This document shows, one piece after another, positions 1,381 through 41,876 of a DNA stretch of 41,876 bases. The number at the start of each line of letters is the position of its first letter. Position 1 is the stretch's first letter. Origin of the DNA: a virus; IMG/VR virus record IMGVR_UViG_3300036831_000025, positions 1 to 41,876 of that record; one strand, 5' to 3'. The notes beneath the pieces were generated by a model. That model did no database searches and was not told where the DNA came from. It was given only the letters and a program-made list of their open reading frames with translations. Made by a program: the position numbers and the translations under genes.

Positions 1381-3419
1381 TGCTTTTCCTAGACCTAGAG
1401 ACGTTTAGTAACTTGGATCTTCGCCACGTCGCGCTAGACCGTTACGCCTCGCACCCGAGTACCCGCATTCTCATGTGCGCGTACTGCCTGGACGACGGCG
1501 AAATGCAGTTTTGGCAAGAGAGCGACGACAAGGCGGAACTCGTCCATTTAATTGAGTCGAATACCTGCGTTGCCTGGAACAAAGGATTCGAGGAAAGGTT
1601 ACTCGCCGCCGTATGGAAGGTCAAAGCTAAGGCGTGGACCGACGCGATGGTATCCGCACGCTACGCCGGGCTGCCCGCGGGGCTGAAAGATTGTAACAAG
1701 GTGCCGTTCTTTGCCGGGCAGTCCGTAACCACGAAAGAAACGCTTCTCATTAACAAATTCTGCAAGCCGGGGAAAAATGGAACCGTTAGAAACCGCGAGA
1801 CCGACCCGGAAGACTGGGCTTTCTTCTGCGATTATTGCCGACGCGATGTACTGGACACACGCCTTATATTCAATTGGCTATCCACTCGCTTTCCATTTCC
1901 TGCACGCGTCTTTAATGCTTGGCTCTTGGATCAAAAGATCAACCGCCGCGGGATGCCGATTGATCTGCCGATGTGCTACAACGCGGACGCAGAGGCAACC
2001 CGTTTACAGGCGCTTGCGGTTGAGCAATTGGCCGCGCTAACTGGACTCGCTAACCCGAACTCGGTAGCGCAGCTCTTGAAATGGGTTGCGGAGCGTGGCT
2101 ACGTTTATAACTCGCTCGGAAAAGAGCTAGTCAAGAAAGCAATCGAGGAGCTGCCGGACGGCGAGTGTAAACAAGCCTTAGAGCTGCGTCTCTCGGGCAC
2201 CAAGTCCAGCGTAAAGAAGTTCAAGAAAATTCTTGAGCAGATTTCGCCAGACAACCGCCTCCGAGATCAATATGCGTATTACAAGGCGCATACCGGGAGA
2301 TGGGCGGGCCGCGGCGCACAGTTGCAGAACTTGAAAGCCGCCCGCACGAAAGAAGAGAAAGCCCTAGTTGCTTCGGTCGTCGCTGCGCTAGTCGAAGGCC
2401 GCGAGGTTGCGAACCTGGACGCCTTGACTCTCGCCGGTCGGCCTTTGATTAAGGCGCCGAAAGGTAAAAAGGTCGTACTCGCGGATTTTAAATCCGTTGA
2501 GAATCGCGTCTTGGCATGGGTTGCCGGTTGCGAAGCAATGATGCAGGTCTACCGCGAGGGTAAAGACCCGTATATCGACTTCGCTAGCCGTATGGAAAAT
2601 ATCCCCTACGACGAAGTTTCAGCGGAAATGCGGCAGATTGCCAAGCCCGGTACGTTAGGGTGCGGCTTCGGACTTGGAGGCGGAAAACTCGTCCGCGTTG
2701 CGAAGTGCAAAGCCTGTAAAGAAAGCTGGAACGTCGGATTAGACGCGGATACTTCCGAGTGCCCGAAGTGCAAGGCCGTCGTAGTGACTAACCAAGTCCA
2801 GAAAACCGGCCTTTGGCGCTACGCGGAAATGATGGGTGTCGTCATTGACCAAAAGGAAGCGGCTAAACAAGTCGAAGAGTTCCGCATGTCGTTTACGGAG
2901 GTTTGCTCGTTTTGGTACTACCTCGAAGAGGCTTTTTACGCTTGCGTAATGACCAAGAGGAACCAAACCTTAACGAGTTCGCTAGGCGCAAAGATTGTAC
3001 TTCGCTACCAAGATCCGGCGCTAAGGATAACGTTACCGTCCGGTCGTGAACTGCATTACTTAAATCCGACGGCCTTCGAGACGCGGGACGAACGCGGCTT
3101 TAAGAAACAAACGATTGGATTCGAGGGCGTACGCGGTCACTCTTGGGGTACGCAGTATACCTACGGCGGTCGCCTCGCAGAAAACATAGTACAGGCCATA
3201 GCCGCAGACCTTCTAGTAGACGCGCTTCTTAAAACCGAAGAGGACGGGAAGCTAGAGTTAATCGGCCATTGCCACGACGAAATAATCTGCCTCGCGGATA
3301 CCTCAGACAAGACCGCCGCCGAACGTTTAGAAGGCTATATGAGTACCTGCGAGCCGTGGGCAGTCGGTCTGCTTATGGCCGCGGATAGCTATGAAGGTGA
3401 GCGATATGCGAAAGGGTAA
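1380..3419 (+). CDS. Family A DNA polymerase with 3'-5' exonuclease domain
   Basis: The 679-residue replicative polymerase starts at ATG 1380, chosen because it overlaps the preceding stop as TAATG. The N-terminus has the exonuclease DxE motif (FLDLETF, residues 3-9). The palm has motif A (VLADFKSVENR, Asp about 369), motif B (KPGTLGCGFGLGG, Lys about 422) and motif C (CHDEI, Asp about 633). There is no 5'-3' exonuclease domain, as expected for phage enzymes. Between motifs B and C is an inserted four-cysteine element, C443-x2-C446-x14-C461-x2-C464, a probable zinc ribbon. It copies phage DNA together with the divergent primase-helicase. Downstream it overlaps an HNH-type gene. Confidence 0.93.
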   Translation: MLFLDLETFSNLDLRHVALDRYASHPSTRILMCAYCLDDGEMQFWQESDDKAELVHLIESNTCVAWNKGFEERLLAAVWKVKAKAWTDAMVSARYAGLPAGLKDCNKVPFFAGQSVTTKETLLINKFCKPGKNGTVRNRETDPEDWAFFCDYCRRDVLDTRLIFNWLSTRFPFPARVFNAWLLDQKINRRGMPIDLPMCYNADAEATRLQALAVEQLAALTGLANPNSVAQLLKWVAERGYVYNSLGKELVKKAIEELPDGECKQALELRLSGTKSSVKKFKKILEQISPDNRLRDQYAYYKAHTGRWAGRGAQLQNLKAARTKEEKALVASVVAALVEGREVANLDALTLAGRPLIKAPKGKKVVLADFKSVENRVLAWVAGCEAMMQVYREGKDPYIDFASRMENIPYDEVSAEMRQIAKPGTLGCGFGLGGGKLVRVAKCKACKESWNVGLDADTSECPKCKAVVVTNQVQKTGLWRYAEMMGVVIDQKEAAKQVEEFRMSFTEVCSFWYYLEEAFYACVMTKRNQTLTSSLGAKIVLRYQDPALRITLPSGRELHYLNPTAFETRDERGFKKQTIGFEGVRGHSWGTQYTYGGRLAENIVQAIAADLLVDALLKTEEDGKLELIGHCHDEIICLADTSDKTAAERLEGYMSTCEPWAVGLLMAADSYEGERYAKG

Positions 3420-3747
3420 CCGCGGCAGTGATAAGTGTGTCGCCGGTTGCCGCTGCGATAGGCACCGGGCACGAAACCCGCGCTATGGAACGAGGGAATA
3501 TAAGTCTTACCATATGGCGCGGCAGCGGGCTACAAACCCGAATAACCAACGCTGGAAAGATTATGGAGGACGCGGAATTGAATTTCGTTTTGCATCCTTC
3601 GCGCATTTCTTTTCTGTGTTAGGCGAAAGACCGGAGGGCACAACACTAGACCGGATTAACGTAGACGGTCACTACGAACCGGGTAACGTGCGCTGGGCGA
3701 CACCTAGTCAGCAGCAATTTAACCGGAGGAATTGTCGTGCAAAATAG
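3406..3747 (+). CDS. HNH-type homing endonuclease-like protein, copy 1
   Basis: The 113-residue product contains the blocks YGGRGIEF, LDRINVDGHYEPGNVRWAT and a closing NRR. This is the signature of a widespread family of free-standing HNH/AP2-related putative homing endonucleases. ATG 3406 was chosen because GGTGA lies a few bases upstream; ATG 3391 is an alternative. The N-terminus has a Cys/His cluster (CVAGCRCDRH) that may bind zinc. It overlaps the polymerase 3' end by 14 bases. A paralog lies at about 41.1-41.4 kb, after the PD-(D/E)XK nuclease gene. Insertion beside replication genes is typical of mobile endonuclease genes. Confidence 0.7.
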   Translation: MRKGNRGSDKCVAGCRCDRHRARNPRYGTREYKSYHMARQRATNPNNQRWKDYGGRGIEFRFASFAHFFSVLGERPEGTTLDRINVDGHYEPGNVRWATPSQQQFNRRNCRAK

Positions 3748-10401: not shown

Positions 10402-10650
10402 CTAAATAACTCGTTTGCACCGAGCACTATACGGGTGATTCGGATTAACCGTGCTAAAGCAGTCCGGCACCGGGTCGTGTTGGCACTGCACGATTAGCGG
10501 CGTTGCACCGTCCGGGTAGACGTAGTCCTCGTTACAGAAGTGGTTAGCCCGTTTCAGCGCTTCGGCGGTGATCTGCGCGGGCGCCGGGCCGGGCTTTACC
10601 GTTGGGACAATCCCGAGAAAACAAATTAAAAGGGCTATGTGCGCGGTCAT
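10402..10650 (-). CDS. Small secreted Cys-containing protein, 82 aa
   Basis: ATG 10650 overlaps the stop of the FkbM-like gene (ATGA). The first 20 residues (MTAHIALLICFLGIVPTVKP) form a signal-peptide-like hydrophobic stretch, followed by four cysteines (HFCNED, VQCQHD, DCFST, ARCKRV) that could form two disulfides in the periplasm. No family is recognised. It is the last gene of the accessory cassette. Confidence 0.55.
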   Translation of the reverse strand: MTAHIALLICFLGIVPTVKPGPAPAQITAEALKRANHFCNEDYVYPDGATPLIVQCQHDPVPDCFSTVNPNHPYSARCKRVI

Positions 10651-11174
10651 TGTATCCACCAATCCTCGAAAGGCTTCCCGTTGCCCTTCCGAATTTCAAC
10701 GTCGGCGTACGCGAGCCTATACCCCTGTGATCGGAGAAACTCGCGGATTGGCGCCCGGACTTTATCGCCATGCCTGTAAGCGTCGTGCTCTACGGTCATA
10801 CAACGGAACCGAAGCCCGGCACCTACGAGGCGCTGCAAGATTGTTAGCGCCAACGTCCCGGTTTCGTTTTCGTCTATGTCCAGGGAAAGGTAATCAATTA
10901 CGTCCCAGCGTTTGCTAACAATCCGCCAATCCAGTTTTGAGGCGTCGGCTAGGACAAAAGGGCTACGACGGCGTTGCTTCCACATTGGAGCGTACGCCGG
11001 TTCGATGTCGAAGCCGAAGCCGTGCCAGCCTAAGCCCTCCAGGGCATAGGTGTTATTCCAGCGGATAGGTTCATTGCATCCGATATCTAAGAACGTCCCG
11101 GTAAGGCGTTCGCCGCAAGCCTCGAAAGCGAAGATATCCTGCCTGGATTCGCCGCGCCAGTTCACGTTTACCAC
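10647..11174 (-). CDS. FkbM-like SAM-dependent methyltransferase
   Basis: The 175-residue product starts at GTG 11174, overlapping the upstream gene by 7 bases. It has a SAM-binding motif I (GTFLDIGCNEP, about residues 26-36), a motif II-like GFGFDIEP, and the motif YLSLDIDENE typical of FkbM-type methyltransferases, which methylate hydroxyls of small molecules or sugars. It is shorter than typical FkbM proteins. In this cassette, with glycosyltransferases and a deacetylase, O-methylation of a glycan is the most natural role. The substrate is unknown. Confidence 0.75.
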   Translation of the reverse strand: MVNVNWRGESRQDIFAFEACGERLTGTFLDIGCNEPIRWNNTYALEGLGWHGFGFDIEPAYAPMWKQRRRSPFVLADASKLDWRIVSKRWDVIDYLSLDIDENETGTLALTILQRLVGAGLRFRCMTVEHDAYRHGDKVRAPIREFLRSQGYRLAYADVEIRKGNGKPFEDWWIQ

Positions 11175-11725
11175 GATTCACCAACCCATATAGAGCCGGG
11201 CCCGCGGCCAATCTGCGTAAACAATTCGCGTACGGCCTTGACTACGCCGGGCCGCCCGCCGTCGAAGTCGTGCCCACAAATTAACCCGCCAAGATTCAAG
11301 AGCGGACGCCAAGCCAAAATATCGGCTTTAACGTTGTCGTAGTCGTGGGCAGCGTCTATAAAGATCATGTCGAAAGGGCCGTCACCGCGTAGGAAGGAAG
11401 ACGCGTTCATCGAAGGCATTTCCACGAGGGCGATATTAAACGGTGTTATATCACGGACGTTTCTAAAAAACTCCATGAAAAGCCAATCTTCCGGTTTGCC
11501 TTTCAGCTCGGTATAATGCCCGTCTTCCTTCGTTCCTTTCCAGGTATCCACGGCGTAGACGAAGCCCTTCGTATTGTCCGCGAGTGCCCGAGTGCTTCGG
11601 CCTTTCCAGCATCCAATTTCCACGATACGGTTACGGCTTTGGGCTTGCTCGGCTAGCCAAAGCAATTCTTTTTCCGATGTCCAGCCCTGGATAGCGAGCG
11701 CCTTAGTAATGTCCGGCTTTACCAT
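11168..11725 (-). CDS. Class I SAM-dependent methyltransferase (Methyltransf_24-like)
   Basis: The 185-residue product has the full class I pattern: motif I IVEIGCWKGRST (about 34-45), motif II VYAVDTWKG (about 56-64), then FDMIFIDAAHDYDNVKAD and GGLICGHDF. The IDAxHxY segment is typical of Methyltransf_24/CmcI-like enzymes that modify sugars or small molecules. It overlaps the FkbM-like gene and the tiny membrane protein gene upstream. With its neighbours it likely decorates a glycan; the acceptor is not known. Confidence 0.82.
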   Translation of the reverse strand: MVKPDITKALAIQGWTSEKELLWLAEQAQSRNRIVEIGCWKGRSTRALADNTKGFVYAVDTWKGTKEDGHYTELKGKPEDWLFMEFFRNVRDITPFNIALVEMPSMNASSFLRGDGPFDMIFIDAAHDYDNVKADILAWRPLLNLGGLICGHDFDGGRPGVVKAVRELFTQIGRGPGSIWVGESW

Positions 11726-11841
11726 GAATGCACCATAAAGAGCGCGACTCGAACGACGACGGCCCGGTAAAATGTGTAATCAATCGCCGCCCCTAACACG
11801 AGCGCGGCTACGAAGTACCAATTAAAACCTTTGAGCGACAT
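11719..11841 (-). CDS. Tiny membrane protein, 40 aa
   Basis: ATG 11841 to TAA 11719. One hydrophobic helix spans most of it (WYFVAALVLGAAIDYTFY) and a second hydrophobic patch follows (VVVRVALFMV). The start overlaps the GT-A gene by 20 bases and the stop overlaps the next start by 7 bases. It is typical of the very small membrane proteins scattered through this cassette. Function unknown. Confidence 0.5.
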   Translation of the reverse strand: MSLKGFNWYFVAALVLGAAIDYTFYRAVVVRVALFMVHSW

Positions 11842-12685
11842 ACAAGCCCTCCGGGGTCCACGGCTTGAACTCGGGCAAACCGTTAATGTCATCGAACGAG
11901 TGCGACGCCTCTTGTACTAGCGTGCCGCTGGCTAATCCGTTGCGTAGCTCTTTTGTCGTAAACGTGGGCCCGCTCATCCTGTGGTAGCCCTTTACGCCGA
12001 CGTGGGCGCACCTTGGCCGCCCGGCCCAGGCTACGACTCGCTTGCCGGGACGCTCTAACAAGAGCCGCATAATAAGCCCGGCTTGCTCTACCCAACGGTT
12101 GCACGGTATCGGGCTATCGGGAAACTCCCTGGCGAGGTAAACCGTGGGGTTTGTGTAATAGTCCGGGGTTGCATGGCGAACGACCGCGGCGAGGTTGTGC
12201 CGTTTCCAACACACGCCGATACTGCTAAAGTCCTCTTTACTCTCAACGATGGCGTTAGGATCTGGCGAATCCCGGATAGCTAAGGGGTTGCGGATACAGT
12301 GCCAACCGACCGAGCAAAAGTAATCCGCTCGGGCTTGGACGGCTTCGTGCCAATCGAAGAAATCCTCTCCGATGAACACGTCGTCCTCGATAAGATAGAC
12401 GTAGCGTGCGTCCCGGTCCTCGAAGGCGTTACCGTACGCCTCCAGGAAGTTAAGCGTATTGCCGATGGCGTTATGAGGCGGTCGCATAACGAAGTACCCG
12501 TTAAGCCCGGCTTCGGCGACGACCGTACGCGACGCCGGTACGTCAACGTGCAACGTTCGGCGCGGGTTGTCGTGGTAGACGCGCACTTCTATGTTTCGAT
12601 TGCCCTTCGCCGCCTTGATATGTTCAAGGCACAGGGTAAGGTATTCAGGCCGTAAGAACGTCGGTACGATGACAATATCTTTCAC
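11822..12685 (-). CDS. GT-A fold glycosyltransferase
   Basis: GTG 12685 was chosen because it overlaps the deacetylase stop (GTGA) and the glycosyltransferase homology begins there. The 287-residue product starts with DIVIVPTFLRPEYL, the usual opening of GT-A/GT2-like enzymes. It has VRVYHDN and, near residue 107, YVYLIEDDVFIGEDFF, in which EDD is the probable metal- and nucleotide-sugar-binding acidic motif. The enzyme would transfer a sugar from an activated donor. It is translationally coupled to the polysaccharide deacetylase. Donor and acceptor are unknown. Confidence 0.75.
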   Translation of the reverse strand: MKDIVIVPTFLRPEYLTLCLEHIKAAKGNRNIEVRVYHDNPRRTLHVDVPASRTVVAEAGLNGYFVMRPPHNAIGNTLNFLEAYGNAFEDRDARYVYLIEDDVFIGEDFFDWHEAVQARADYFCSVGWHCIRNPLAIRDSPDPNAIVESKEDFSSIGVCWKRHNLAAVVRHATPDYYTNPTVYLAREFPDSPIPCNRWVEQAGLIMRLLLERPGKRVVAWAGRPRCAHVGVKGYHRMSGPTFTTKELRNGLASGTLVQEASHSFDDINGLPEFKPWTPEGLYVAQRF

Positions 12686-13395
12686 AGTTTGCCCCTTAGA
12701 TAATTCGCTACGGTGCCGAAAGGCGCGGTCCATACTTCCCCGAGCCGTGAGTATGCGAGCAACGTTGAGAGCAACCCCTGGAATTGCGGCACGCCGACGT
12801 TGTCCCATGTGCCCTCTTGCCCTACGCCGTGAAACATGAGGACTATCCAGGCGCCGCGTTCTACCGCTTCCTCGATTCGGGCGTAGAGGTAGTCTTCCTC
12901 CGCTCCCGGCTCGTTTAAGAAACTCTTCCAACTGATGTGGTACGAAGGGACGTTAAAGAGGTTTACGCCGTCGCCGGGCACAATGTTTTTATCCGCTCTG
13001 GCGCCGCGCCCGCCTCGTGCCTGGAGATAATATTTCTTTACCGGATCTTGAAGATGCTTAGGGGCGTCTGTGTATGGGTAGCAGAAGGAAGTTACGTGCG
13101 TGCCTAGCGTAGCTTCTAGGCTCTTGCGGGACTGCCACGCCTCCCATAACGCGCCGGTGTCGGTTAGTTCGGCGGCCTTCGTGTGCGTAACGGAGTGGCT
13201 TCCTATTTCGTGCCCGTTCGCGGCGACGGCCCGCCACGCCTTAGCGTCGTAGGGATATTCCGGGCACCGGCTCGGAAGGAAGAACGCCCCCTTAATGCCT
13301 ACGCGGTCCATAGCCGGGATAGCGTGCTTCAATTGGCACGGCAACCCGTCATCGAAGGTTAGTGATACAGCGGCTTTGTGTCCGTTCCAAGTCAT
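12682..13395 (-). CDS. NodB-domain polysaccharide deacetylase
   Basis: ATG 13395 overlaps the previous stop (ATGA). The 237-residue protein has the NodB motifs in order: SLTFDDG (about 11-17) with the catalytic and metal Asp, HEIGSHSVTH with two metal His, FCYPY, and a C-terminal LMFHGVG with the catalytic His. These carbohydrate esterase 4 enzymes remove acetyl groups from N-acetylglucosamine in peptidoglycan or exopolysaccharide. There is no signal peptide, so it likely acts on a cytoplasmic glycan precursor or on a non-polymeric substrate. Confidence 0.88.
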   Translation of the reverse strand: MTWNGHKAAVSLTFDDGLPCQLKHAIPAMDRVGIKGAFFLPSRCPEYPYDAKAWRAVAANGHEIGSHSVTHTKAAELTDTGALWEAWQSRKSLEATLGTHVTSFCYPYTDAPKHLQDPVKKYYLQARGGRGARADKNIVPGDGVNLFNVPSYHISWKSFLNEPGAEEDYLYARIEEAVERGAWIVLMFHGVGQEGTWDNVGVPQFQGLLSTLLAYSRLGEVWTAPFGTVANYLRGKL

Positions 13396-13658
13396 AGCAC
13401 CGGGTCCAATCCGCAATGTTCTTTCCTGCATTGGCTTCGTTTATGGTTAGTCGCGTTGCCTTCGTCGTGATATTCCGCGCGTGCCCGTTGCTTCTCTTCC
13501 GCTTCCTCTTGCGCCTTGTTTAGCTTTTCGCATTTCTCAAAGGCTTTCTTCTGCAACGTAATCGCACGCTCTATAGCCTTGTCCGGGTCGCCTCCGGTTT
13601 GCTGCCAAAGAAAGGCCGCCAGCATTGCTATGTGCTCGGTATTGAGATATCGACTCAT
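13392..13658 (-). CDS. Hypothetical charged helical protein, 88 aa
   Basis: The product starts MSRYLNTEHIAMLAAFLWQQ and continues with a highly charged helix (KAFEKCEKLNKAQEEAEEKQ). ATG 13658 has an AAGGA about eight bases upstream. The helix probably forms a coiled coil; there are a few Cys/His residues at the C-terminus (SQCRKEHCG). No family is recognised. It overlaps the deacetylase start and the tiny membrane protein gene. Confidence 0.5.
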   Translation of the reverse strand: MSRYLNTEHIAMLAAFLWQQTGGDPDKAIERAITLQKKAFEKCEKLNKAQEEAEEKQRARAEYHDEGNATNHKRSQCRKEHCGLDPVL

Positions 13659-13753
13659 CGCGTAATCCTTTCCTTAATGGCGTAAACCATCGCCATAGTC
13701 ACGGCAAGACCGAGTATCCAGAAATAAGCGAGTACCCAACCGAGCCGTTTCAT
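13655..13753 (-). CDS. Tiny single-pass membrane protein, 32 aa
   Basis: ATG 13753 to a TGA overlapping the next ATG. The product (MKRLGWVLAYFWILGLAVTM at the start) is almost entirely one transmembrane helix with a positive N-terminus and a KERITR tail. It overlaps the GT17 gene by 4 bases. Coupling on both sides argues that it is translated. Confidence 0.5.
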   Translation of the reverse strand: MKRLGWVLAYFWILGLAVTMAMVYAIKERITR

Positions 13754-14565
13754 GCTGCTACCGTCTTTCTAAAGAAGTGCGAGAATCTCTCCCGGTTCAT
13801 TTCGAGATATTCCGGTAGATGTGTCTGCACGTCCGCGAATATCGCGGGCATTTCGCAACGCCGATGATGCAAGTCCCGCCGCGCCTCGATATCGCGGGCT
13901 AATTCATCGTCTCCGAAAAGTTTGTACTCGGAAAGGAACGGCGACAACGCGGCTACTTTGGTCTTGATCTTCTCCGGGCCGCCAAAGTAACTGAAATGCC
14001 AACCGCCGTTTTCGATGGCCGGGCAAGTATCCTTTTCGTGCATCCGAAAGTCGTACATGCACCCGCACCCTAAAAGGTCTCTCGCTGTGCCGATGCGTGC
14101 CCGGCTTGCGAAGTCGTGCCCGTAGTCCACGAGGGTCTGTACGTTGTAATAGAAAGAGTGCTGCTTAAACCGGCGTATCCCGGCCCGGTCGGTATCGAGA
14201 TAGTATTGGACGGCGTCGGCGCTAGGTATCTCGTCGCAGTCCGAGAAAATTACTACGTCTTCCGGGTGCAGCTTGTGGCTAAACAACGGCACCCATAATA
14301 AATCCCGTTGAAAAGCCTCCCTACGGCGTCCCGTTACGCGGTCCGTACAGTTGGGATAAAGCCTTCCTATCGTCCGGTAATCAATCTGCGCATGAAAGTC
14401 CTTAAAGCGGTTCCAATTGTCCCGGAGGTTAAAGGGCTTCGGCTGCCCGCCGTATGTCTCGGCTGCCTCGATAATGACGAACTTGTCCACGACGGGAGCG
14501 AGTTCGTTAAGCCGGATCTCTAAAACGTCCAGCTCGTTAAAGAAGGGAAAGCAATCATAAACCAT
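13750..14565 (-). CDS. Family 17-like glycosyltransferase (GT17)
   Basis: The 271-residue product begins MVYDCFPFFNELDVLEIRL, the typical opening of glycosyltransferase family 17. It continues with VDKFVIIEAAETYGG and has FSDCDEIPS near residue 107, the conserved acidic motif of this family. GT17 includes beta-1,4-N-acetylglucosaminyltransferases, and bacterial members occur in polysaccharide loci. It would add a sugar, possibly GlcNAc, to a glycan. It starts 11 bases inside the end of the upstream GT-B gene. Confidence 0.82.
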   Translation of the reverse strand: MVYDCFPFFNELDVLEIRLNELAPVVDKFVIIEAAETYGGQPKPFNLRDNWNRFKDFHAQIDYRTIGRLYPNCTDRVTGRRREAFQRDLLWVPLFSHKLHPEDVVIFSDCDEIPSADAVQYYLDTDRAGIRRFKQHSFYYNVQTLVDYGHDFASRARIGTARDLLGCGCMYDFRMHEKDTCPAIENGGWHFSYFGGPEKIKTKVAALSPFLSEYKLFGDDELARDIEARRDLHHRRCEMPAIFADVQTHLPEYLEMNRERFSHFFRKTVAA

Positions 14566-15469
14566 TTAAGACGCCTCGTATGGTCTGGAAAAAGTATGCG
14601 TTGTCCTTTAGAAAGCCCGCCCGCGCTTCGTTGCCGAGCCGGTCCAGGGTTTCTAGGGGCAGCGCTACCGCTTTTCTAACCGTGTTAGCTAACGCCGATA
14701 TTGATACAAGGGACGCCGTCGCTTCCGCCATCCCGGATTCTTGTACCGTTTGCACCAAGAGCGCCCGCGGTATACCCGAGAAGGACCGCATGGGCTCGCC
14801 GTTGGTCGTAATGACGACGGCCCGGCATCCAAGGGCTTCGTGTATCGAGTGTCCGTATCCTTCGTACTTACTCGGCATAATAAAAAACCGTGCGCTATTT
14901 ATCTGGTCTTGCAATTCGGTTTCCGTAAAGCGGTTTACTAAGTGGACGTTGTCAATTCCTTTGCAGGACCGCGCAATCTCGGGCTTGAAGGCTACGACGG
15001 TAAGGGGATAGGGGAGATGGAACCGACGCCACGCCTCCGCTACCGCGGTCGTGTTCTTCGTTTGACTCTTCCCGGCAGTGTGCAGGAATTTTGCTTCCTT
15101 GGGAATATCTTTCCACAAGTCCCGCGCCGCCCAGCCGGTAAAGACGCATTGCTTGTGCTTCTTTTTCCATATCCTTAAGCAGTCCTGCGTTTTGCAGAGG
15201 ACGCGCTCGATACGCCCTAGATGCACGTTCCAGTGCCCGCCCCACCATTCCGAGTTAGGCACAAGCCAGTTGCGCGGCGCCATGTCCAAAAGGGACGGGA
15301 CGAGGACTTCCAGGAAGACGTTGAGATCCGCCCGGACTGCCTCGCTCGGCCTATGGATATGCGCGGTTAAGACTTCGTGCCCGGCTTCCCGGCAGAGATC
15401 CGCCAAGAGCGCGTAGTCTTGCTGTAGACCCGCCCCGTTGTCCAGGTTCGTTATTATCTGGATGCGCAC
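14555..15469 (-). CDS. GT-B fold glycosyltransferase
   Basis: GTG 15469 was chosen because the Rossmann-like N-terminus (VRIQIITNLDNGAGLQQDY) begins there. The 304-residue protein has a GT-B organisation. The C-terminal half contains SKYEGYGHSIHEALGC (residues about 222-237), the E-x7-E type donor-binding motif of GT1/GT4 enzymes, followed by VITTNGEPM. It would use a nucleotide sugar to extend a glycan. It overlaps the 67-residue gene upstream by 16 bases and GT17 downstream by 11 bases. Confidence 0.78.
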   Translation of the reverse strand: MRIQIITNLDNGAGLQQDYALLADLCREAGHEVLTAHIHRPSEAVRADLNVFLEVLVPSLLDMAPRNWLVPNSEWWGGHWNVHLGRIERVLCKTQDCLRIWKKKHKQCVFTGWAARDLWKDIPKEAKFLHTAGKSQTKNTTAVAEAWRRFHLPYPLTVVAFKPEIARSCKGIDNVHLVNRFTETELQDQINSARFFIMPSKYEGYGHSIHEALGCRAVVITTNGEPMRSFSGIPRALLVQTVQESGMAEATASLVSISALANTVRKAVALPLETLDRLGNEARAGFLKDNAYFFQTIRGVLNGL

Positions 15470-15657
15470 GCGGCTGCACCGATGCCGGAAACCATAAAGA
15501 GCCGAATGCTGCTTAGGTCTTCTGCACAGAAATGTTGCAGGGTTTGAGTTAAAAAGATGGACGTGCCGTTTTCCTTGGTAACGCTTCCCACGATTGCCCC
15601 ATCGCGGGTAACGTTCCATTTTGTAGCCGTTGTCGGTTCAAATTTGAGATAAGACAT
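15454..15657 (-). CDS. Small hypothetical protein, 67 aa; first gene of glycan cassette
   Basis: ATG 15657 follows GGGAGG at 10 bases. The product starts MSYLKFEPTTATKWNVTRDG and looks beta-rich in its first half (GAIVGSVTKENGTSIFL). No signal peptide, Cys motif or family is recognised. It is coupled to the GT-B gene by overlap. Similar small beta proteins accompany tail genes in other phages, so a virion-linked role is possible. Confidence 0.5.
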   Translation of the reverse strand: MSYLKFEPTTATKWNVTRDGAIVGSVTKENGTSIFLTQTLQHFCAEDLSSIRLFMVSGIGAAACASR

Positions 15658-15808: not shown

Positions 15809-15837
15809 TTGACATAAAAAGCGCCTAATGACATACT
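15809..15837 (+). promoter_or_regulatory. Plus-strand sigma70 promoter for 15912-16229
   Basis: A perfect TTGACA (15809-15814) is followed by a 17-base spacer and CATACT (15832-15837). Transcription would begin near 15845, leaving a 5' leader of about 67 bases. It is the best consensus promoter in the window and it opposes the surrounding minus-strand transcription. Confidence 0.7.
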
Positions 15838-15911: not shown

Positions 15912-16229
15912 ATGTACAAGAAGATAAAAAGAGACGAAATGCCCCATAAGAAGCGCCGCTCTGTAAGCCGCCTGGAATTGACAAAAGAGTGGCAGCTTAT
16001 GAAAGCGGACATCGACAAGGGCATTAAACCTAACGAGGCGTTGCAGATTTGTCTAAGCGACGACGATAAAGAAAAGTACCGCATTAAGGACCGGCGAGCC
16101 GCGGCTAGATACATTAAGAAATACCTAAGCGCACACAAGCTGCCGTATGCCGTAAAGAGCATGTCCCGGCCCGGCGAGGGTGATTTTTTCATCGTTCACT
16201 ACTCCCCGGTTCTGAAAAGGACCGCTTAA
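15912..16229 (+). CDS. Isolated plus-strand basic protein, 105 aa
   Basis: ATG 15912 was chosen over ATG 15828 because the latter lies before the predicted transcription start and only the former has an SD (GAGGCGAAA). The product is rich in Lys and Arg (MYKKIKRDEMPHKKRR...), then has a helix (LELTKEWQLMKADIDKG), IKDRRAAARYIKKYLSAHK and a beta hairpin-like end (GDFFIVHYSP). The layout suggests a small winged-helix or other nucleic-acid-binding protein, but no family is recognised. Its own strong promoter inside an opposing region is typical of a lysogeny-expressed moron or regulator. Confidence 0.6.
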   Translation: MYKKIKRDEMPHKKRRSVSRLELTKEWQLMKADIDKGIKPNEALQICLSDDDKEKYRIKDRRAAARYIKKYLSAHKLPYAVKSMSRPGEGDFFIVHYSPVLKRTA

Positions 16230-16434: not shown

Positions 16435-19400
16435 TTAGTGTCCTATAAGGATGTTTCGGAAGTACGCGCCGGTGCCCACGCTGCCGCCGCCTATTGCAAT
16501 TCCAGTACCCGCGAAAGACGCTAACGGCGCTTTGTGCCACATCTGCCCGTTGACGAAAATCGTTACCGTTGCAGCCGTGGCGTCGATGACCGCCCGCACG
16601 TTTATCCATTGCCGAGTAAGTTTATCCAATAGCATAGGGTCATTACTGTCGGTGTCTACGTACGCGTCCGCCGCGAAAGCGGTAAAGTGCGCTAGAACGC
16701 CTCCGGGGTTAGGCGTTCCGCTCACGATTCCGCGAAAGTCCATAAAGATTCCTTGGCCGGTCCCTGTGGATGTAATGCCGAATATCAAGTATCCGATACT
16801 CGTGTTATCCAGCACCAAGATGTCAAATTCTATAGTTTTCCCCGCGAGTGCTACCGCTGGATCTTTAAAGGCTCGGCCATGCGAGGACGCGTCAACGGGG
16901 CAGAAAATAGCCGAAGGGGATAAGCGCGGGTTAGACGAACTAGTCTTTACTAATGGCGTCGCCGCTCCAAGCGTCCAACCGGATAAGCTAGACCCGTCCG
17001 CGCTAAAGTCCGTAGTGGCAAACGATCCGCCCGCCGTTGGTGGCCCGTTAACCCATTCCGACCCGTTCCACTTTAAGACATCGTTAGTCGCCGGGCTGGT
17101 AACGACGACATCCGAAGCCCTGGTAATGCTGTCCAAAGATCCGGTAAAGGTTGCGCTCGTCGCCGTTGCGGTAAAGTCGTCCACTTCGTCGGCGGCGCTG
17201 CTCGCCCCGTAGCTATTCACTGCAATAACTCGAACGTCGTAATGCACGGCGTCCACTACGCCGGGAATATAGAAAACCGTATCCGCGCCGTTCGCCTGTC
17301 CTACGAGGCGCCAATTAGATTGTCCGCCCTGGACCTTGACAATAAACGAGCCGGTATTCGGGCCGTCAGGAGGCACGCCGCTTCCCGGACCGAAGAAGGT
17401 ATCATTTAACCCTAGAAGGATCTGCTTTGCGCCCGATGGTGCCGTAAGCGTACGCGGGCCGTTTCCTATGTTATGCACGCCGCCCGCAATAATGTTTCCT
17501 AGTTCGTCCGCGAATGTCCCGATTAACCCGAGCACGCCAATGTCCGGGCCGTCCGATGCAAAGTCTTCGGGGAAGGGCCGCGTAACTCCGCTTTCGCCGC
17601 CCTCGTCGCCGTCGAGATCCGATGCCGTACCCGCCGCCGAATATAAGCCCGAGCCCGAGACGTATTCAATCGTTATGCTTTCCCCGGCTTCGATAGGAAT
17701 TGCGATAGGGTCGGTCCCTATATTGTCCCAATTCCAAACGAAAGAAGCGTTAATACCCAAAGTGGACCACGGAATACTTGTCGCCGGGATAGTAAAATTT
17801 TGGTCCCGCTCGCGCATCCATATTTCAATTTTTCCGCCGTTAAGGACGTGCGTATCGGCGGGCGGCGTCCAGGTCGCTTTAATCTGCAACGCCTTAATAC
17901 CGTCTGCCCTTGTGACTTCTACGTTAGAGAGCGCAAGCCCTGAAGGTGCGCCGACCGTCCCGATATTCGGCAGCGTTGTGCTTGCCGGCCCGGTAAAAGC
18001 GCCCTCGTCGGTCGTCTCGTCCCAGGCGTACACGTCGGTATCAATCGGGACGCAGGTAAGATTCGTCCCTATTATTACTTGGTCCGCGTTCTGCGTTGCT
18101 TCGAGGGACGTATTAGTAACGAGGAAGGTTTTATTTGTCCAGCCGAAGCGGGAATGCGAAACCTCGATTACATCGCCGGGCTCGCAAGGGAAAGCCGCGA
18201 GACTGCACGGAAGCACTAATTGATTCTGCCGCCGATTCTGCTCAAGATGGATCTTTGCGAGGCGTTGGCATCGTATATGGTTTGTCGTAAAATCTAGCGT
18301 TATATCCGTGGGAATGTAATCGCTGCCGTCTTCAGATAAAAAGGTCGCGCTTTCGTACGGCGGAAAATCGGTTGGCTGCCAATTGTTTTCCGGCCCGGTA
18401 AACGTGCCTGTAACGGCGTTGGCGAGGTTACGCCGGGATACGCGGGTGTCGTACTTAATCGGTCCCCGGAAGTCCGAGTCGGAAAGGCTAAGGACCGGGT
18501 CGGTGTACGCGCCCGCGAAGATTTTCCACGCGTCGCCGGGAGGGTTTACCCATCCGGCCATTGCCGTTAGCATGGCGTTAAGTGCGTCGCCGCGAGCTAC
18601 CGAAGCGTCGAAGGTGCCGTCGCAGGTATAGCGTTGCTGCGTCCCGCCCGCCTTAAGGTTTACTGTCTCTTCGCAGATATTCGCCGCCGCGGTTACGGTG
18701 TCGTCGTCTATCGTCGCCGGGTCCGCACCAAGCCCGAACTCTGTATCCGTTATGAAATCTCTAGCGCACAACGCCGGGTTATTGCTGTACCCTGTCGTGC
18801 TCGTACGCGGGTCGTAGACTTCTTTACCTAGGACATCGAACGCAATCGAGGACGGGATACCGGACGGGAACAAGGTAGCGTCCCATACAATCCGAAGATG
18901 GACTTTCGCGCAACCCCGCTGTAAGTGGCTACTCGTCCAATGCGAAGGCGCGTCGCTGTGGAAACTCGGGAAGGGCTGCGATGATACCGTAGGGTCGCCG
19001 TTGTCAAACTCGATACACATATGAGCACGAAACGGGCTACCGGAGGACGGATGCCAGCACAAAGGGTTACCGTATTGGTCCGGCCCTTGCGTCAACGGGA
19101 CTGCTGTACCGTCTAAATAAATTTGCGTTTTGCTTATGGCGTGGACCTTGTGCCCGGCGAGTGTAATGATTAAGTGCAAGTATTCATTGTTTGCGCCGGT
19201 TAGTCCCATGTCGGTAATGATTCCACCAACCCGGCGAGATCCGTAGATAATCCGCCGATAGCTAATAGGTTCGCGTACTGCTAACTGACTGCCCGAATCG
19301 CCGGTTACGCTCGCAGCGTGGCGGAATAGCTTTGTAACCGCACCTATGGCAAGGTTAGCGCCTAGCTCAATTAACGACGTAATCAAGCCCACGGACAACG

Positions 19401-19467
19401 CCGTAGCGGTAGCAGCGGAAGCACCGAGAGCTATAAAGACGGGAGCGAGGACGGCGAGAAACGGCAT
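16435..19467 (-). CDS. Tail tip/central attachment (J-like) protein
   Basis: ATG 19467 overlaps the preceding stop (TAATG). The 1010-residue protein starts with a hydrophobic Ala-rich region, followed near residue 65-120 by the J-like segment REPISYRRIIYGSRRVGG and LIITLAGHKVHAISK. The middle contains fibronectin-type III-like beta repeats. The last 180 residues resemble a LamG/concanavalin jelly roll (KTIEFDILVLDN, WINVRAVIDATAATVTIF). The N-terminal part would anchor to the distal tail, and the C-terminal lectin-like domain probably recognises a host surface glycan. It is encoded directly beside the glycan-modifying cassette. Confidence 0.85.
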   Translation of the reverse strand: MPFLAVLAPVFIALGASAATATALSVGLITSLIELGANLAIGAVTKLFRHAASVTGDSGSQLAVREPISYRRIIYGSRRVGGIITDMGLTGANNEYLHLIITLAGHKVHAISKTQIYLDGTAVPLTQGPDQYGNPLCWHPSSGSPFRAHMCIEFDNGDPTVSSQPFPSFHSDAPSHWTSSHLQRGCAKVHLRIVWDATLFPSGIPSSIAFDVLGKEVYDPRTSTTGYSNNPALCARDFITDTEFGLGADPATIDDDTVTAAANICEETVNLKAGGTQQRYTCDGTFDASVARGDALNAMLTAMAGWVNPPGDAWKIFAGAYTDPVLSLSDSDFRGPIKYDTRVSRRNLANAVTGTFTGPENNWQPTDFPPYESATFLSEDGSDYIPTDITLDFTTNHIRCQRLAKIHLEQNRRQNQLVLPCSLAAFPCEPGDVIEVSHSRFGWTNKTFLVTNTSLEATQNADQVIIGTNLTCVPIDTDVYAWDETTDEGAFTGPASTTLPNIGTVGAPSGLALSNVEVTRADGIKALQIKATWTPPADTHVLNGGKIEIWMRERDQNFTIPATSIPWSTLGINASFVWNWDNIGTDPIAIPIEAGESITIEYVSGSGLYSAAGTASDLDGDEGGESGVTRPFPEDFASDGPDIGVLGLIGTFADELGNIIAGGVHNIGNGPRTLTAPSGAKQILLGLNDTFFGPGSGVPPDGPNTGSFIVKVQGGQSNWRLVGQANGADTVFYIPGVVDAVHYDVRVIAVNSYGASSAADEVDDFTATATSATFTGSLDSITRASDVVVTSPATNDVLKWNGSEWVNGPPTAGGSFATTDFSADGSSLSGWTLGAATPLVKTSSSNPRLSPSAIFCPVDASSHGRAFKDPAVALAGKTIEFDILVLDNTSIGYLIFGITSTGTGQGIFMDFRGIVSGTPNPGGVLAHFTAFAADAYVDTDSNDPMLLDKLTRQWINVRAVIDATAATVTIFVNGQMWHKAPLASFAGTGIAIGGGSVGTGAYFRNILIGH

Positions 19468-19898
19468 TAAGCTACCCTCCAAGCGCGAGACCAATACTTA
19501 ATAGGTAACTTTTGATACCCGACTTCTGCGACGGTATAAGCGCTGCGACCGTCTAAGGCGACGATACCGAGCGCGGTTTCTTGATCCGTTGCCAATAGCA
19601 CGATGTCCCCGCGCTGCGCCGCACGCGGTCCGACTTCCGTTAGCCCTTTTTCGCCGCCGCGTTTCTCCGCAAGGTCGGATAACTGCCCACTCGGGACGAA
19701 CTCGCGGATTACTTTAGCGGCGCCTAGCTTCGTCGTGTATCTTCCCCGGAAGTCGGCGGCTATGTCCGTACCCGTCATTGCTAACACTGCGTCGCAAGCG
19801 AAGAGCGAGCAATCGTGCTTTCCCCAAGCAAAGGGCGTAAAGGCGCGAGACATAATGAACTCAAGTAAACGGCTTTCCCAATCGCTGTAACGTTTCAT
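19467..19898 (-). CDS. NlpC/P60-like tail peptidase (DUF6950-like)
   Basis: The 143-residue protein has FAWGKHDCSLFACDAVLAMT near residues 23-42, with the putative catalytic Cys in DCSL, and AQRGDIVLL near residue 93 where the second catalytic region of NlpC/P60 proteins lies. This is the pattern of DUF6950, a family frequent just before the J-like protein. It probably corresponds to the tail-tip peptidoglycan hydrolase of lambda K and would cut the cell wall during DNA entry. The active-site His is not clearly placed. Confidence 0.75.
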   Translation of the reverse strand: MKRYSDWESRLLEFIMSRAFTPFAWGKHDCSLFACDAVLAMTGTDIAADFRGRYTTKLGAAKVIREFVPSGQLSDLAEKRGGEKGLTEVGPRAAQRGDIVLLATDQETALGIVALDGRSAYTVAEVGYQKLPIKYWSRAWRVA

Positions 19899-25631: not shown

Positions 25632-26225
25632 TTAAAAGACCCTATGCGCCCGGAAGATACTAAGATAGCCTTCCGGTACTTCGTTCTGCGCTTCTGTGCT
25701 AGTCGATTCCGGGTGATCGTAGAAATGCGCCGCGAGGCGCCGAATCGCTAACCGGATTTGTTCGGGTATGGTTACGGTATCGTCGCCGTAGCCGCCATAT
25801 GCGTAACCGGCGTGAAAATGAACCTCAACCGCGCCCGCGATGTGTCCCGCGGTTACGACCGGGTAGATATTCGGCGCCTTCTCTTGCACGACGCCCGGCC
25901 AATTGTGCAGACCTACGATGTACTCGGACGCGTCCCAGGTCTGCTGATTACCGCCTGAATCGAGGTAAAGAATCGTATCCACGGCTATAAGTGGCGGCGC
26001 CGGTACAATAAGCGGCTTACCGGGACTTGGGAAAGAGTCATAGTACGCGGCGTAACCCTTATAAATGAGGCTCTGCCGGGTAATACGCTCGCCTATCTCG
26101 CGGGCCGCCACAATGTACCCGGCGATATCCGCGTCGTCCGCGCTGCTAGTTAGCCGCAAGACGCTCTTGACTTCGTCTACTGTCACAGGTTCAAGGCTTG
26201 GTTGACTTTCAACGCGTAGTAACAT
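25632..26225 (-). CDS. Head-tail connector (gp6/gp15-like adaptor)
   Basis: The 197-residue protein starts PSLEPVTVDEVKSVLRL after a short lead and has DDADIAGYIVAAREIGERIT, the helical N-terminus of the phage gp6-like head-tail connector family. The later region VTIPEQIRLAIRRLAAHFY with ENR/STSTEAQNEVPEGY is typical of its C-terminus. It forms a ring below the portal. The start overlaps the inserted glycosyltransferase gene by 17 bases. Confidence 0.85.
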   Translation of the reverse strand: MLLRVESQPSLEPVTVDEVKSVLRLTSSADDADIAGYIVAAREIGERITRQSLIYKGYAAYYDSFPSPGKPLIVPAPPLIAVDTILYLDSGGNQQTWDASEYIVGLHNWPGVVQEKAPNIYPVVTAGHIAGAVEVHFHAGYAYGGYGDDTVTIPEQIRLAIRRLAAHFYDHPESTSTEAQNEVPEGYLSIFRAHRVF

Positions 26226-27168
26226 GATCGCCCTTTCTTAGTGCTGTTTGCCACGCTAACGCAGCCTTGCCGCCGTATTCCCGCAACCGCTTAAGGTTCT
26301 GACTCGCTATCCAAGCCGGGTCTTCGATGGCGCGGACAATGGCGCCGGTTAATGACGCGGTATCCGTCGCGCAGCCTTCCGCCCAGGGAATGTGACTTGT
26401 CATAACGGACGGGACGCCCGCCGCTACGAAGTCCGCCGCGGTAAGACAGAAACTTTCCGCGAACGAGCCAAAGATGCCGAGATCCATAGACGGGATGACT
26501 TCGGACTTGAAATGCTCGGTTTCTAACCAATCGTGTTTAACGAGGGTTATATCTAGCTCTCGGGCTAAGGCGTCCAGCTCGGTTAAAATGTGCCCCGTTC
26601 CCTCTATCCGCGTCGAATTGATGTGAAAGAAAACGTTAGGCTGCTTAATGTGTCCGCGGGCCGCGCCGAGCGCAAGCAAGCTGCCGACGTGGTTCTTTAA
26701 TGGGCGGATACTTCCGAAACATCCAACGTCGAAATTCTTAGGGCCGCCCGCATACGTATAACCCGGTTGGCCTAGCGGGTAGTTAATCGGTAAGAACGTC
26801 GCGCCGAGTATCCAAGCCAGTTCTTCGGATACGCAAGCGATTTCCGCGCCTAGTTCGCGGGCTTCGCGTATGTACTTGGTCGTGCAGGTTCCGGGCCGCT
26901 CGAAGTACAGGAACTCGGGCGCCGCGTGCAACCGGATAATAACCCGCCGTGCGTTGTGCTTCAGCATTCGCACTAGCTCAAGATCCGCCCAGCCGCCGCC
27001 CTCGATAACTACGACTTCGGCTAGGTCGTAGGAGGTATGCGGCGCGATGTCTTTCTCGCTTTTCAGCGTTAGGACGTTGGCTTTTAAGTGCCGGGCGTCG
27101 TATCCCGCCGCGTTATGCACTGCCGACCCTTTAAGCGCCCGGTCCCGAATTAGAAACGTTACTCGCAT
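26209..27168 (-). CDS. GT-B glycosyltransferase-like protein inside the head module
   Basis: The 319-residue protein has an N-terminal Rossmann-like region (MRVTFLIRDRALKGSAVHNA) and a C-terminal donor-binding region. There, NFDVGCFGSIRPLKNH resembles the start of the GT4 C-terminal domain, and FGSFAESFCLTAADFVAAG has the spaced Glu/Asp motif used for nucleotide-sugar binding, followed by VPSVMTSHIPW. It lies between the capsid region and the connector, where phages normally carry structural genes. It may glycosylate virion proteins or be a moron. It overlaps the connector start, so it is co-translated with morphogenesis genes. Confidence 0.72.
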   Translation of the reverse strand: MRVTFLIRDRALKGSAVHNAAGYDARHLKANVLTLKSEKDIAPHTSYDLAEVVVIEGGGWADLELVRMLKHNARRVIIRLHAAPEFLYFERPGTCTTKYIREARELGAEIACVSEELAWILGATFLPINYPLGQPGYTYAGGPKNFDVGCFGSIRPLKNHVGSLLALGAARGHIKQPNVFFHINSTRIEGTGHILTELDALARELDITLVKHDWLETEHFKSEVIPSMDLGIFGSFAESFCLTAADFVAAGVPSVMTSHIPWAEGCATDTASLTGAIVRAIEDPAWIASQNLKRLREYGGKAALAWQTALRKGDHVTTR

Positions 27169-40301: not shown

Positions 40302-41089
40302 AAATTAGCTTTAGCAAGTATTCGGCCTTCCTGCAAAATCCCGAGCGGTTTCGACTCTACTACATGCTCGGGCTTAGTCCTGAAGGCGCGGACACGCCGA
40401 GTAACTTTAACTATGGGCGTCGCCGCGGCAGTTGTTTTCACGCCATACAGGAAGCGCGAGCTAAGGGCGTTCGGGACTCGGTCATTACCGAGCATAAGTT
40501 CGATCAAGCCCTTTACGAGCGCTGCGTAAAGCTAGTCGAAGCCGTGCCGGGATTCGGCAACGTCCTCGTCTCGGAAAAGGAGTTTGAACTCCCGATTGGC
40601 GACGGGAAGCACTCGATTACCGGGCGAATAGATCACATCGTAGACGACGCGGGTGTTATTCGGGTTGGCGACTTCAAGACGACTAAGAAGCGCACCAAGT
40701 TTGAGATGCAGCAATACTTCGGGGACTTGGTCACTAGCTCACAGAGTCACTTCTACGTTTTCGCCGCCGCTGCCCTTGGCTATGAGACGGATCAATTTCT
40801 TTATCACGTCTGCATTGACGAAAAGGACAAACCGAAGCACATACCTTTGGACGTAAGGGTTACCAAGCTAGAAGTAACCCGGACTATGCGGCACGTATAC
40901 GCCGCGTGCGAAGCAATCGAAGGGCTAATTGAGCGCGTCGGTATTGACAACCCTTGGCCGCATTCAAACCATTTTCCTTGTGCCGGTGATCGCTTCTTTT
41001 GTGGCTACTCGGCTATATGCGGAAGAACGCTGCCGAAGGGCGCGGCCCCGCAAGGTTTCATAACGAAGTACCCGGAGGAAAACAAATAA
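40298..41089 (+). CDS. PD-(D/E)XK nuclease (RecB/Cas4-like)
   Basis: TTG 40298 is favoured by GGAGAAAC and by overlap with the ribbon stop. The 263-residue protein begins KISFSKYSAFLQNPERFRLY, typical of RecB-family nucleases, has ITGRIDHIV, VGDFKTTKK (the D-x-K catalytic motif) and SQSHFYVFAAAALGY with the conserved Gln. Near the C-terminus a cluster of cysteines (PCAGDRFFCGYSAICGR) resembles part of a Cas4/AddB iron-sulfur site. It probably processes DNA ends for replication or recombination with the OB protein. Confidence 0.85.
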   Translation: MKISFSKYSAFLQNPERFRLYYMLGLSPEGADTPSNFNYGRRRGSCFHAIQEARAKGVRDSVITEHKFDQALYERCVKLVEAVPGFGNVLVSEKEFELPIGDGKHSITGRIDHIVDDAGVIRVGDFKTTKKRTKFEMQQYFGDLVTSSQSHFYVFAAAALGYETDQFLYHVCIDEKDKPKHIPLDVRVTKLEVTRTMRHVYAACEAIEGLIERVGIDNPWPHSNHFPCAGDRFFCGYSAICGRTLPKGAAPQGFITKYPEENK

Positions 41090-41166
41090 CGTCACACATT
41101 AGTTTAGCCGGGCGCCGGGCTATCTCTCGGGCGAACCGCACGCATGGGCACTTTGTTAACGGACGC

Positions 41167-41424
41167 ATGAGTCCTACTTACGTCAGCTATACGCAAGCCC
41201 GGCAGCGATGCACCAACAAGAAAAACGAGCATTGGAAAGGTTACGGCGGACGTGGCATTGAATTTCGTTTTAGCTCTTTCTTCGAGTTTCTAGCGGTTGT
41301 CGGCTTGCGGCCTAAAGGCAAGACGTTGGACCGTATCAATGTAAACGGAAACGGCCACTACGAGCCGGGTAATATTCGTTGGGCTACGCCTTTAGAGCAA
41401 AGGCACAATCGGAGGGATTCTTGA
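41167..41424 (+). CDS. HNH-type homing endonuclease-like protein, copy 2
   Basis: The product shares YGGRGIEFRF, LDRINVNGNGHYEPGNIRWAT and NRR with the protein at 3406-3747, clearly a paralog. The start given (ATG 41167) is the first standard one after the nuclease stop, but homology extends about 10 residues further upstream with no ATG/GTG/TTG. A good GGAGG ends about eight bases before ATA 41085, suggesting a rare start or a start inside the nuclease gene. The last bases overlap the metallophosphoesterase TTG. Confidence 0.6.
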   Translation: MSPTYVSYTQARQRCTNKKNEHWKGYGGRGIEFRFSSFFEFLAVVGLRPKGKTLDRINVNGNGHYEPGNIRWATPLEQRHNRRDS

Positions 41425-41876
41425 GTAACAAGGTGTTAACGGCGGTTAGTGCGTTCGATATACATTTCCCGGAAACGGACTTCCCAACGTGGAAGGCGAT
41501 TCTTAACTTCGTCGCCCGTAACCGCGTCGGCTTGTTTGTACTCGGCGGCGATAACCTGCACTGCGAAAGCATTAGCAGACACACGAAGGGCAAGCCGAAG
41601 TTTAAGACCTACGGGCAGATGAAACGCGAGCTGGACGGGTTTAGAAAATTCATCCTGGATCCGATTGAAAAACTTCTGCCCGCGTCGTGCGAAAAGGTTT
41701 GGTTAACCGGCAATCACGAAGATTGGCTTGCGCAGATGTACGAAGAGCAACCCGAGTTAGCCGGGCTAATTGACTTCCCGGAATACCTCGGATTGAACGA
41801 GCGCGGTTGGGTCGTGAAGCCCCAAGGCGGTAGCTTCAACAAATGGCACCTTAAATTTATCCACGGCGACGTACTC
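41421..41876 (+). CDS. Calcineurin-like metallophosphoesterase, N-terminal part (continues at 1)
   Basis: TTG 41421 lies five bases after GGAGG and overlaps the HNH stop. The frame runs off the window end and continues at 1-466, giving 252 residues in all. The part here holds the first metal-binding motifs: AFDIHFP (residues about 11-17), VLGGDNLHCES (about 40-50) and LTGNHEDW (about 94-101). Phosphodiester or phosphomonoester hydrolysis is the family role. From 41714 the sequence duplicates the window start with two mismatches, both changing the protein. Confidence 0.85.
   Translation, partial: MSNKVLTAVSAFDIHFPETDFPTWKAILNFVARNRVGLFVLGGDNLHCESISRHTKGKPKFKTYGQMKRELDGFRKFILDPIEKLLPASCEKVWLTGNHEDWLAQMYEEQPELAGLIDFPEYLGLNERGWVVKPQGGSFNKWHLKFIHGDVL
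41714..41876. repeat. Terminal redundancy, right copy
   Basis: Copy of positions 1-163 with two substitutions (41840 c for g, 41844 t for g). The first 126 bases are identical and both mismatches fall in the last 37 bases. This pattern could reflect a low-coverage contig end or true population variation. Confidence 0.95.

Follow-up and report, generated by a model that had tools for sequence, protein, structure and literature searches.

A six-enzyme glycan cassette in a 42-kb siphophage and its probable role in virion glycosylation

To our knowledge, glycosylation of virions by phage-encoded enzymes has been proven in few phages only, chiefly mycobacteriophages. It is known for mycobacteriophages Che8, Corndog and Myrna, with glycans of the Che8 type reported for the capsid and the tail tube (PMC12363180, PMC12619734). 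The Chlorella virus PBCV-1 is described as encoding mostly soluble glycosyltransferases (GTs) together with two methyltransferases whose action caps the glycan of the virion (A064R, A061L; cited part of PMC9614988). The 41,876-nucleotide stretch analysed here (the window) is IMG/VR virus record IMGVR_UViG_3300036831_000025, a 42-kb bacterial virus and, by gene content, an HK97-type siphophage. A single minus-strand run of the window, 15657–10402, carries six enzymes as open frames, namely a GT-B-fold glycosyltransferase (GTB), a GT17-family glycosyltransferase (GT17), a NodB-fold deacetylase (NodB), a GT-A-fold glycosyltransferase (GTA), and two S-adenosylmethionine (SAM) methyltransferases, MT24 and an FkbM-like enzyme. 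This cassette probably serves the cytosolic glycosylation of the phage's own virion proteins, a coating made probable by two observations: five of the enzymes share their order with an unrelated 46-kb viral contig, L002 (IMGVR_UViG_3300015195_000009), and the core pair GTB–GTA recurs beside virion genes.

Transcription of the run proceeds in the order s67, GTB, GT17, s88, NodB, GTA, tm57, MT24, FkbM-like, sec86, where s67, s88, tm57 and sec86 are small open reading frames (ORFs). Neighbouring frames overlap by 4–40 bases, the sole exception being one 91-base gap, and the run is organised like a translationally coupled operon. An earlier note, made from the letters and their open frames, had described an overlapping minus-strand run of six enzymes, and this is borne out by four that lie above Pfam cut-offs and two that are recognised by predicted fold. 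Its gene boundaries hold for the run, with two starts corrected: the GTB ORF reaches ATG 15619, but homologues begin at GTG 15469, which is probably the start, and GTA begins at GTG 12685 rather than TTG 12931. Pfam calls were judged against curated cut-offs, and GTB, GT17, NodB and MT24 all exceed them. GT17 scores 90.8 bits against PF04724 (cut-off 26) and belongs to the GT17 family, while NodB scores 69 bits against PF01522 (cut-off 23.1) and falls within the CE4/NodB fold. The FkbM-like protein lies below the cut-off of PF05050 (Methyltransf_21; 12.7 bits, cut-off 22.7), and its predicted model is a Rossmann methyltransferase (mean predicted local distance difference test score, pLDDT, 83; Z up to 15.3). 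GTA has no Pfam match; its predicted model (mean pLDDT 74) shows a GT-A fold, with POMGnT1 at Z 17.1, the best value, and GnT-I at Z 16.4, as against Z 14.6 reached by the highest-scoring GT-A enzymes of other families. On this model GTA would be a GT-A-fold enzyme closest to the GT13/GT16 N-acetylglucosamine (GlcNAc) transferases. A sequence search of the PDB with GT17 returned chance matches only.

Loss of the active sites, an outcome that the earlier note had named as counting against its proposal, is not seen, and the catalytic motifs are intact. Between the window and L002, the Asp-His-His metal motif of NodB, made up of the Asp of TFDDG and both His of HSVTH, is invariant, as is SDCDEIP in GT17, and the Asp/His residues of TFDDG, HSVTH and MFHG are kept among NodB relatives. 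The GTB motif EG.GH...E (EX7E) is invariant in eight phage relatives, and the IEDD motif of GTA is kept across six sequences. No transmembrane or signal segment was found by hydropathy in any of the six enzymes, the deacetylase included. When the small ORFs were assessed by their maximum hydropathy over a 19-residue window against the usual simple cut-off, only sec86 passed, with tm57 and s67 below it (values in Table 1). Thus, the four small membrane or charged proteins and one secreted protein described earlier are upheld for sec86, while most of the small ORFs are unrecognisable.

GTB, GT17, NodB, GTA and MT24 occur in L002 in the same order and orientation as in the window, at 45–56% identity, a correspondence that, judged from sequence, is more than chance. 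Since a six-frame comparison found no further common genes except small HNH-like ORFs, the cassette appears either to have moved between unrelated phages or to have been kept as a unit. The statement of the earlier note that no such set was known in a phage of this size does not stand, as five of the six are found in L002, joined there by a second methyltransferase of another kind. The latter takes the form of a Methyltransf_24 domain that precedes NodB in a fusion, whereas that of the window is FkbM-like, and the L002 cassette also differs in carrying an inserted GIY-YIG-like ORF and a 165-aa ORF. After the L002 cassette come small ORFs and, beyond them, the portal gene. Screened with the Pfam model, ten records yielded the deacetylase in two only, the window and L002, and a NodB pattern search of viral contigs gave L002 as its sole match. 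Some further features of these loci may be recorded. The GIY-YIG-like ORF occupies L002 9147–10004, inside the cassette between GTB and GT17. The small window ORFs 3391–3747 and 40999–41424 resemble the HNH-like ORFs of L002 (about 52–54% identity), and such mobile endonucleases may help DNA transfer between phages such as these two. Among viral GT17 loci (L002–L069, some contigs redundant), 24 of 68 have an MT24- or FkbM-like methyltransferase within 10 kb; the same count at terminase loci, which are shorter on average, is 0 of 80.

The GTB–GTA pair extends well beyond these two genomes. A profile search gave 63 non-redundant viral loci with GTB, and 42 of them also have GTA on the same strand, usually downstream (38 of 59 when the four loci that built the GTA profile are left out). 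The window itself has both families close together on one strand, with GT17, s88 and NodB in between. The pair neighbours the portal gene in L214, L227, L229 and L240, the major capsid protein (MCP) gene in L079, L175, L189 and L216, the TerL gene in L072, L217 and L240, and the gene of an Ig-domain major tail protein in L188 and L196; L216 has, one after the other, a portal-like gene, GTB, MT24, one ORF, GTA and MCP. Similarly, in Streptomyces phages Quantum and Frankenweenie GTB–GTA homologues are adjacent and lie two genes before the major tail protein, and the GTA profile, built without the second gene of this pair, recognises it. A pattern scan for GTA/GTB in 84,980 bacterial and archaeal genomes yielded no confirmed relative, which is weak evidence of absence, since the two-sequence GTB query missed most viral loci (7 recovered, against 127 confirmed with a broader query). 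We tentatively propose that GTB–GTA might form the core of an unrecognised virion-glycosylation system in many unrelated tailed phages, furnished with exchangeable tailoring enzymes and extended in the window and L002 so that the particle bears an amino-sugar glycan that is methylated and, through partial de-N-acetylation, positively charged. We know of no phage with a virion glycan of this chemistry.

That the cassette encodes an oligosaccharide-building pathway, as the earlier note suggested, is well supported, and of the three uses it offered virion decoration fits best in view of the genomic company, the soluble enzymes, and the lack of a flippase or initiating transferase. GtrA (PF04138) is absent from the phage, the control being positive in 7 of 14, as are the initiating sugar transferase and Wzx-type flippase families, for which positive controls worked. 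Together with six enzymes devoid of membrane or signal segments, this points to sequential cytosolic sugar transfer onto protein rather than a lipid-linked polymer of the cell surface. The presence of GT17 and of a GT13/16-like GTA suggests GlcNAc chemistry, which would provide the deacetylase with a substrate. From predicted enzymatic activities we infer sugars, order of steps, acceptor and benefit as follows. GTB and GTA would be the core pair starting or extending a short chain on an acceptor protein, likely a structural one; GT17 would attach another sugar, probably GlcNAc; removal of an N-acetyl group by the NodB-fold enzyme would leave a free amine; and MT24 and the FkbM-like enzyme would methylate, and so cap, the chain. 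Tail or head proteins would in this way come to bear a short amino-sugar glycan that is methylated and has lost part of its N-acetyl groups, and this would alter the surface charge of the particle and what can bind or degrade it.

Several points weigh against virion decoration. Acceptor and glycan are deduced rather than observed, and the cassette enzymes show no homology to Che8 gp108–110. In L226 the GTB/GTA family adjoins DNA polymerase, not virion genes. The count that speaks in its favour, with head or tail family matches for 13 of 20 large ORFs near the pair as against 2 of 10 lying more than 5 kb away, is rough and supportive only, since the near ORFs were picked by hand or by size. The interval between tail tip and integrase, where the window cassette lies, is a common place for morons. 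Moreover, between the cassette and the tail operon stands a divergent gene with a promoter-like site, and for this reason the cassette may not be co-expressed with the late genes.

Some of these features would suit lysogenic conversion, in which prophage-expressed enzymes modify the lipopolysaccharide (LPS), capsule or exopolysaccharide of the host, and block superinfection or change surface properties. We consider this unlikely, yet it retains some weight because a tyrosine integrase is found among the window genes and the cassette, placed between tail genes and integrase, is bordered by the divergent gene and its sigma-70-like site (TTGACA-17-CATACT with extended -10, 15809–15837). Deacetylation and methylation are also common on surface polysaccharides, and GTB has distant relatives (28% identity) among the proteins of Vibrio exopolysaccharide loci. 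The missing GtrA, flippase and initiating transferase speak against it, as do a deacetylase that lacks a signal peptide by hydropathy and the position of the GTB–GTA pair beside structural genes in other phages. A more improbable alternative is some other function, either a soluble or cell-directed glycoconjugate used in infection, or a mixture in which some small ORFs are lysis genes interleaved with unrelated glycan morons. It would accommodate a weakly Rz-like s88 and the outcome of a scan of window proteins (a subset of ORFs), among which neither an endolysin nor a holin nor a clear spanin could be recognised. The retention of five enzymes in conserved order in L002, where s88 is missing, speaks against it.

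Modification of the phage DNA, with hypermodified bases bearing sugars, has the precedent that DNA is a frequent target of glycosyltransferases from phages (literature cited in PMC12619734). Here it is very unlikely: no homologue of a thymidylate synthase (PF00303, control positive) or hydroxymethylase was found in the phage, and a deacetylase, a GT17 and small-molecule-type methyltransferases would be unusual for DNA; a Tet/JBP search of the phage had no working control and is uninformative. The enzyme types do match those of host glycan loci, which raises the question of a host polysaccharide locus at a prophage boundary or misassembled into the contig. This explanation can be practically dismissed. 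Positions 1–163 of the window are repeated at 41714–41876 (161 of 163 bases identical, two differences), and a phosphoesterase-like frame is continuous across the joined ends. Although the record carries no listed end repeat, these ends identify a closed phage genome, about 41.7 kb long, in which the cassette is bordered by phage genes on either side and has no host flank. Because the record closes on its own overlapping ends, the cassette is not a host locus, and the phage boundary within such a locus that the earlier note had allowed for is not found. GC and third-position GC (GC3) of the cassette agree with the structural genes of the window, and the cassette is also present in the unrelated L002. 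A role in anti-phage defence was considered and set aside, the only PADLOC match being a weak one of MT24 to mads_2. On balance, decoration of the virion is the reading we prefer.

The coordinates of the cassette and its surroundings are collected in Table 1. Genes recognised in the window encode integrase, DNA polymerase, portal, capsid protease, major capsid, tail tube, tape measure and a J-like tail tip; the cassette comes after the tail-tip side and shares its strand, with the small divergent gene in between. This gene stands head-to-head with the cassette and is possibly a regulator. Among relatives of the phage backbone the best terminase reaches 39% identity, and none of these relatives carries the cassette. 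A probable further GT-B gene beside the capsid gene, missed by the earlier note, has a weak Pfam match; its protein has no relative in the phages or viral contigs searched, and comparison with the GTB profile gave no support for kinship. Finally, C-terminal ends noticed without a control, and not used as evidence, include GSTAS or GSTGS in major tail proteins of L085/L086 (Streptomyces phages), GGGSVSGPSGS in the Frankenweenie capsid protein, and AAS and FAS in the window capsid and tail tube, respectively.

Table 1. Features of the cassette, in order of transcription, and of neighbouring or related window genes
Feature	Position	Strand	Remarks
s67, small ORF heading operon	15454..15657	-	16-base overlap with GTB; no Pfam/PHROG match; hydropathy 1.41
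GTB, GT-B (GT4-like) glycosyltransferase	14555..15469	-	Pfam PF13692 (Glyco_trans_1_4) E=3e-9; L002 46% identity
GT17-family glycosyltransferase	13750..14565	-	Pfam PF04724 E=1e-25; SDCDEIP motif; L002 53% identity
s88, small charged protein	13392..13658	-	weak Rz-like match, PHROG 89 E=1.4e-3; no counterpart in L002
NodB-fold (CE4) N-deacetylase	12682..13431	-	Pfam PF01522 (Polysacc_deac_1) E=5e-19; TFDDG, HSVTH, MFHG
GTA, GT-A glycosyltransferase	11822..12685	-	IEDD motif; predicted fold nearest GT13/GT16 GlcNAc-transferases
tm57, small hydrophobic ORF	11719..11841	-	frame is longer if started at 11892; may span the membrane once; hydropathy 1.53
MT24, SAM methyltransferase	11168..11725	-	Pfam PF13578 (Methyltransf_24) E=3e-18; L002 56% identity
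FkbM-like SAM methyltransferase	10647..11174	-	Pfam below cut-off; predicted methyltransferase fold; viral-contig relatives adjoin GT17 genes
sec86, small protein	10402..10650	-	N-terminal hydrophobic segment, hydropathy 2.07; probably secreted or anchored
Small charged protein, divergent	15912..16229	+	between cassette and tail-tip side; start inferred by eye; no family match
Tail-tip protein J	16435..19494	-	PHROG 5616 E=1e-82, PHROG 31 E=5e-58; structural neighbour upstream of cassette, same strand
Additional GT-B glycosyltransferase, tentative	26209..27168	-	flanked by the genes of major capsid protein and a head-tail adaptor; match to Pfam PF13692 below cut-off (E=0.003)

Compared with described systems, the cassette resembles Che8 gp108–gp110 in comprising several adjacent phage-encoded GTs, those of the window being soluble by hydropathy. 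One of the Che8 GTs is fused to an apparent C-terminal methyltransferase domain, and gp110 contains an EDD motif. No significant profile or BLAST match was found between gp108–110 and the cassette enzymes, and since no profile links them to any of these enzymes, there is no GT17 and no deacetylase among gp108–110. The cassette may be regarded as a functional analogue of that of Che8 and not as a detectably homologous member. Closer in sequence are Streptomyces phages Quantum, Satis and Frankenweenie, whose adjacent homologues of GTB (about 31–34%) and GTA (about 28%) correspond to the window core, yet theirs is a two-gene core only, whose annotated neighbours include neither a GT17 nor a deacetylase or methyltransferase. 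The likeness to PBCV-1 is one of description, and PBCV-1 differs as a eukaryotic virus for which the cited part of PMC9614988 describes no deacetylase.

The rhizobial Nod-factor genes (nodABC, nodS) share with the cassette a NodB-fold deacetylase and methyltransferases, and the earlier note had been reminded of lipochitin chemistry. The comparison fails in several respects. GTA is a small soluble GT13/16-like enzyme (by its predicted model), unlike the membrane chitin synthase of the Nod-factor system; the window deacetylase scores 18.2 bits against the NodB equivalog (cut-off 240); and NodS (PF05401) has no match in the phage, its control being positive. A search for NodA gave no match and is uninformative, since no control genome gave a signal either. 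The parallel was rejected on the low equivalog score and the missing NodS, and beyond the shared deacetylase fold the analogy is not supported. With its core recurring in dozens of viral contigs close to structural genes, a cassette this compact and portable would suggest that virion glycosylation is much commoner than thought, and it offers a small gene set for testing what glycans do for the phage particle. Phage virion glycosylation itself is already known; what is new here is the enzyme set, with its deacetylase, and the breadth of the GTB–GTA pair.

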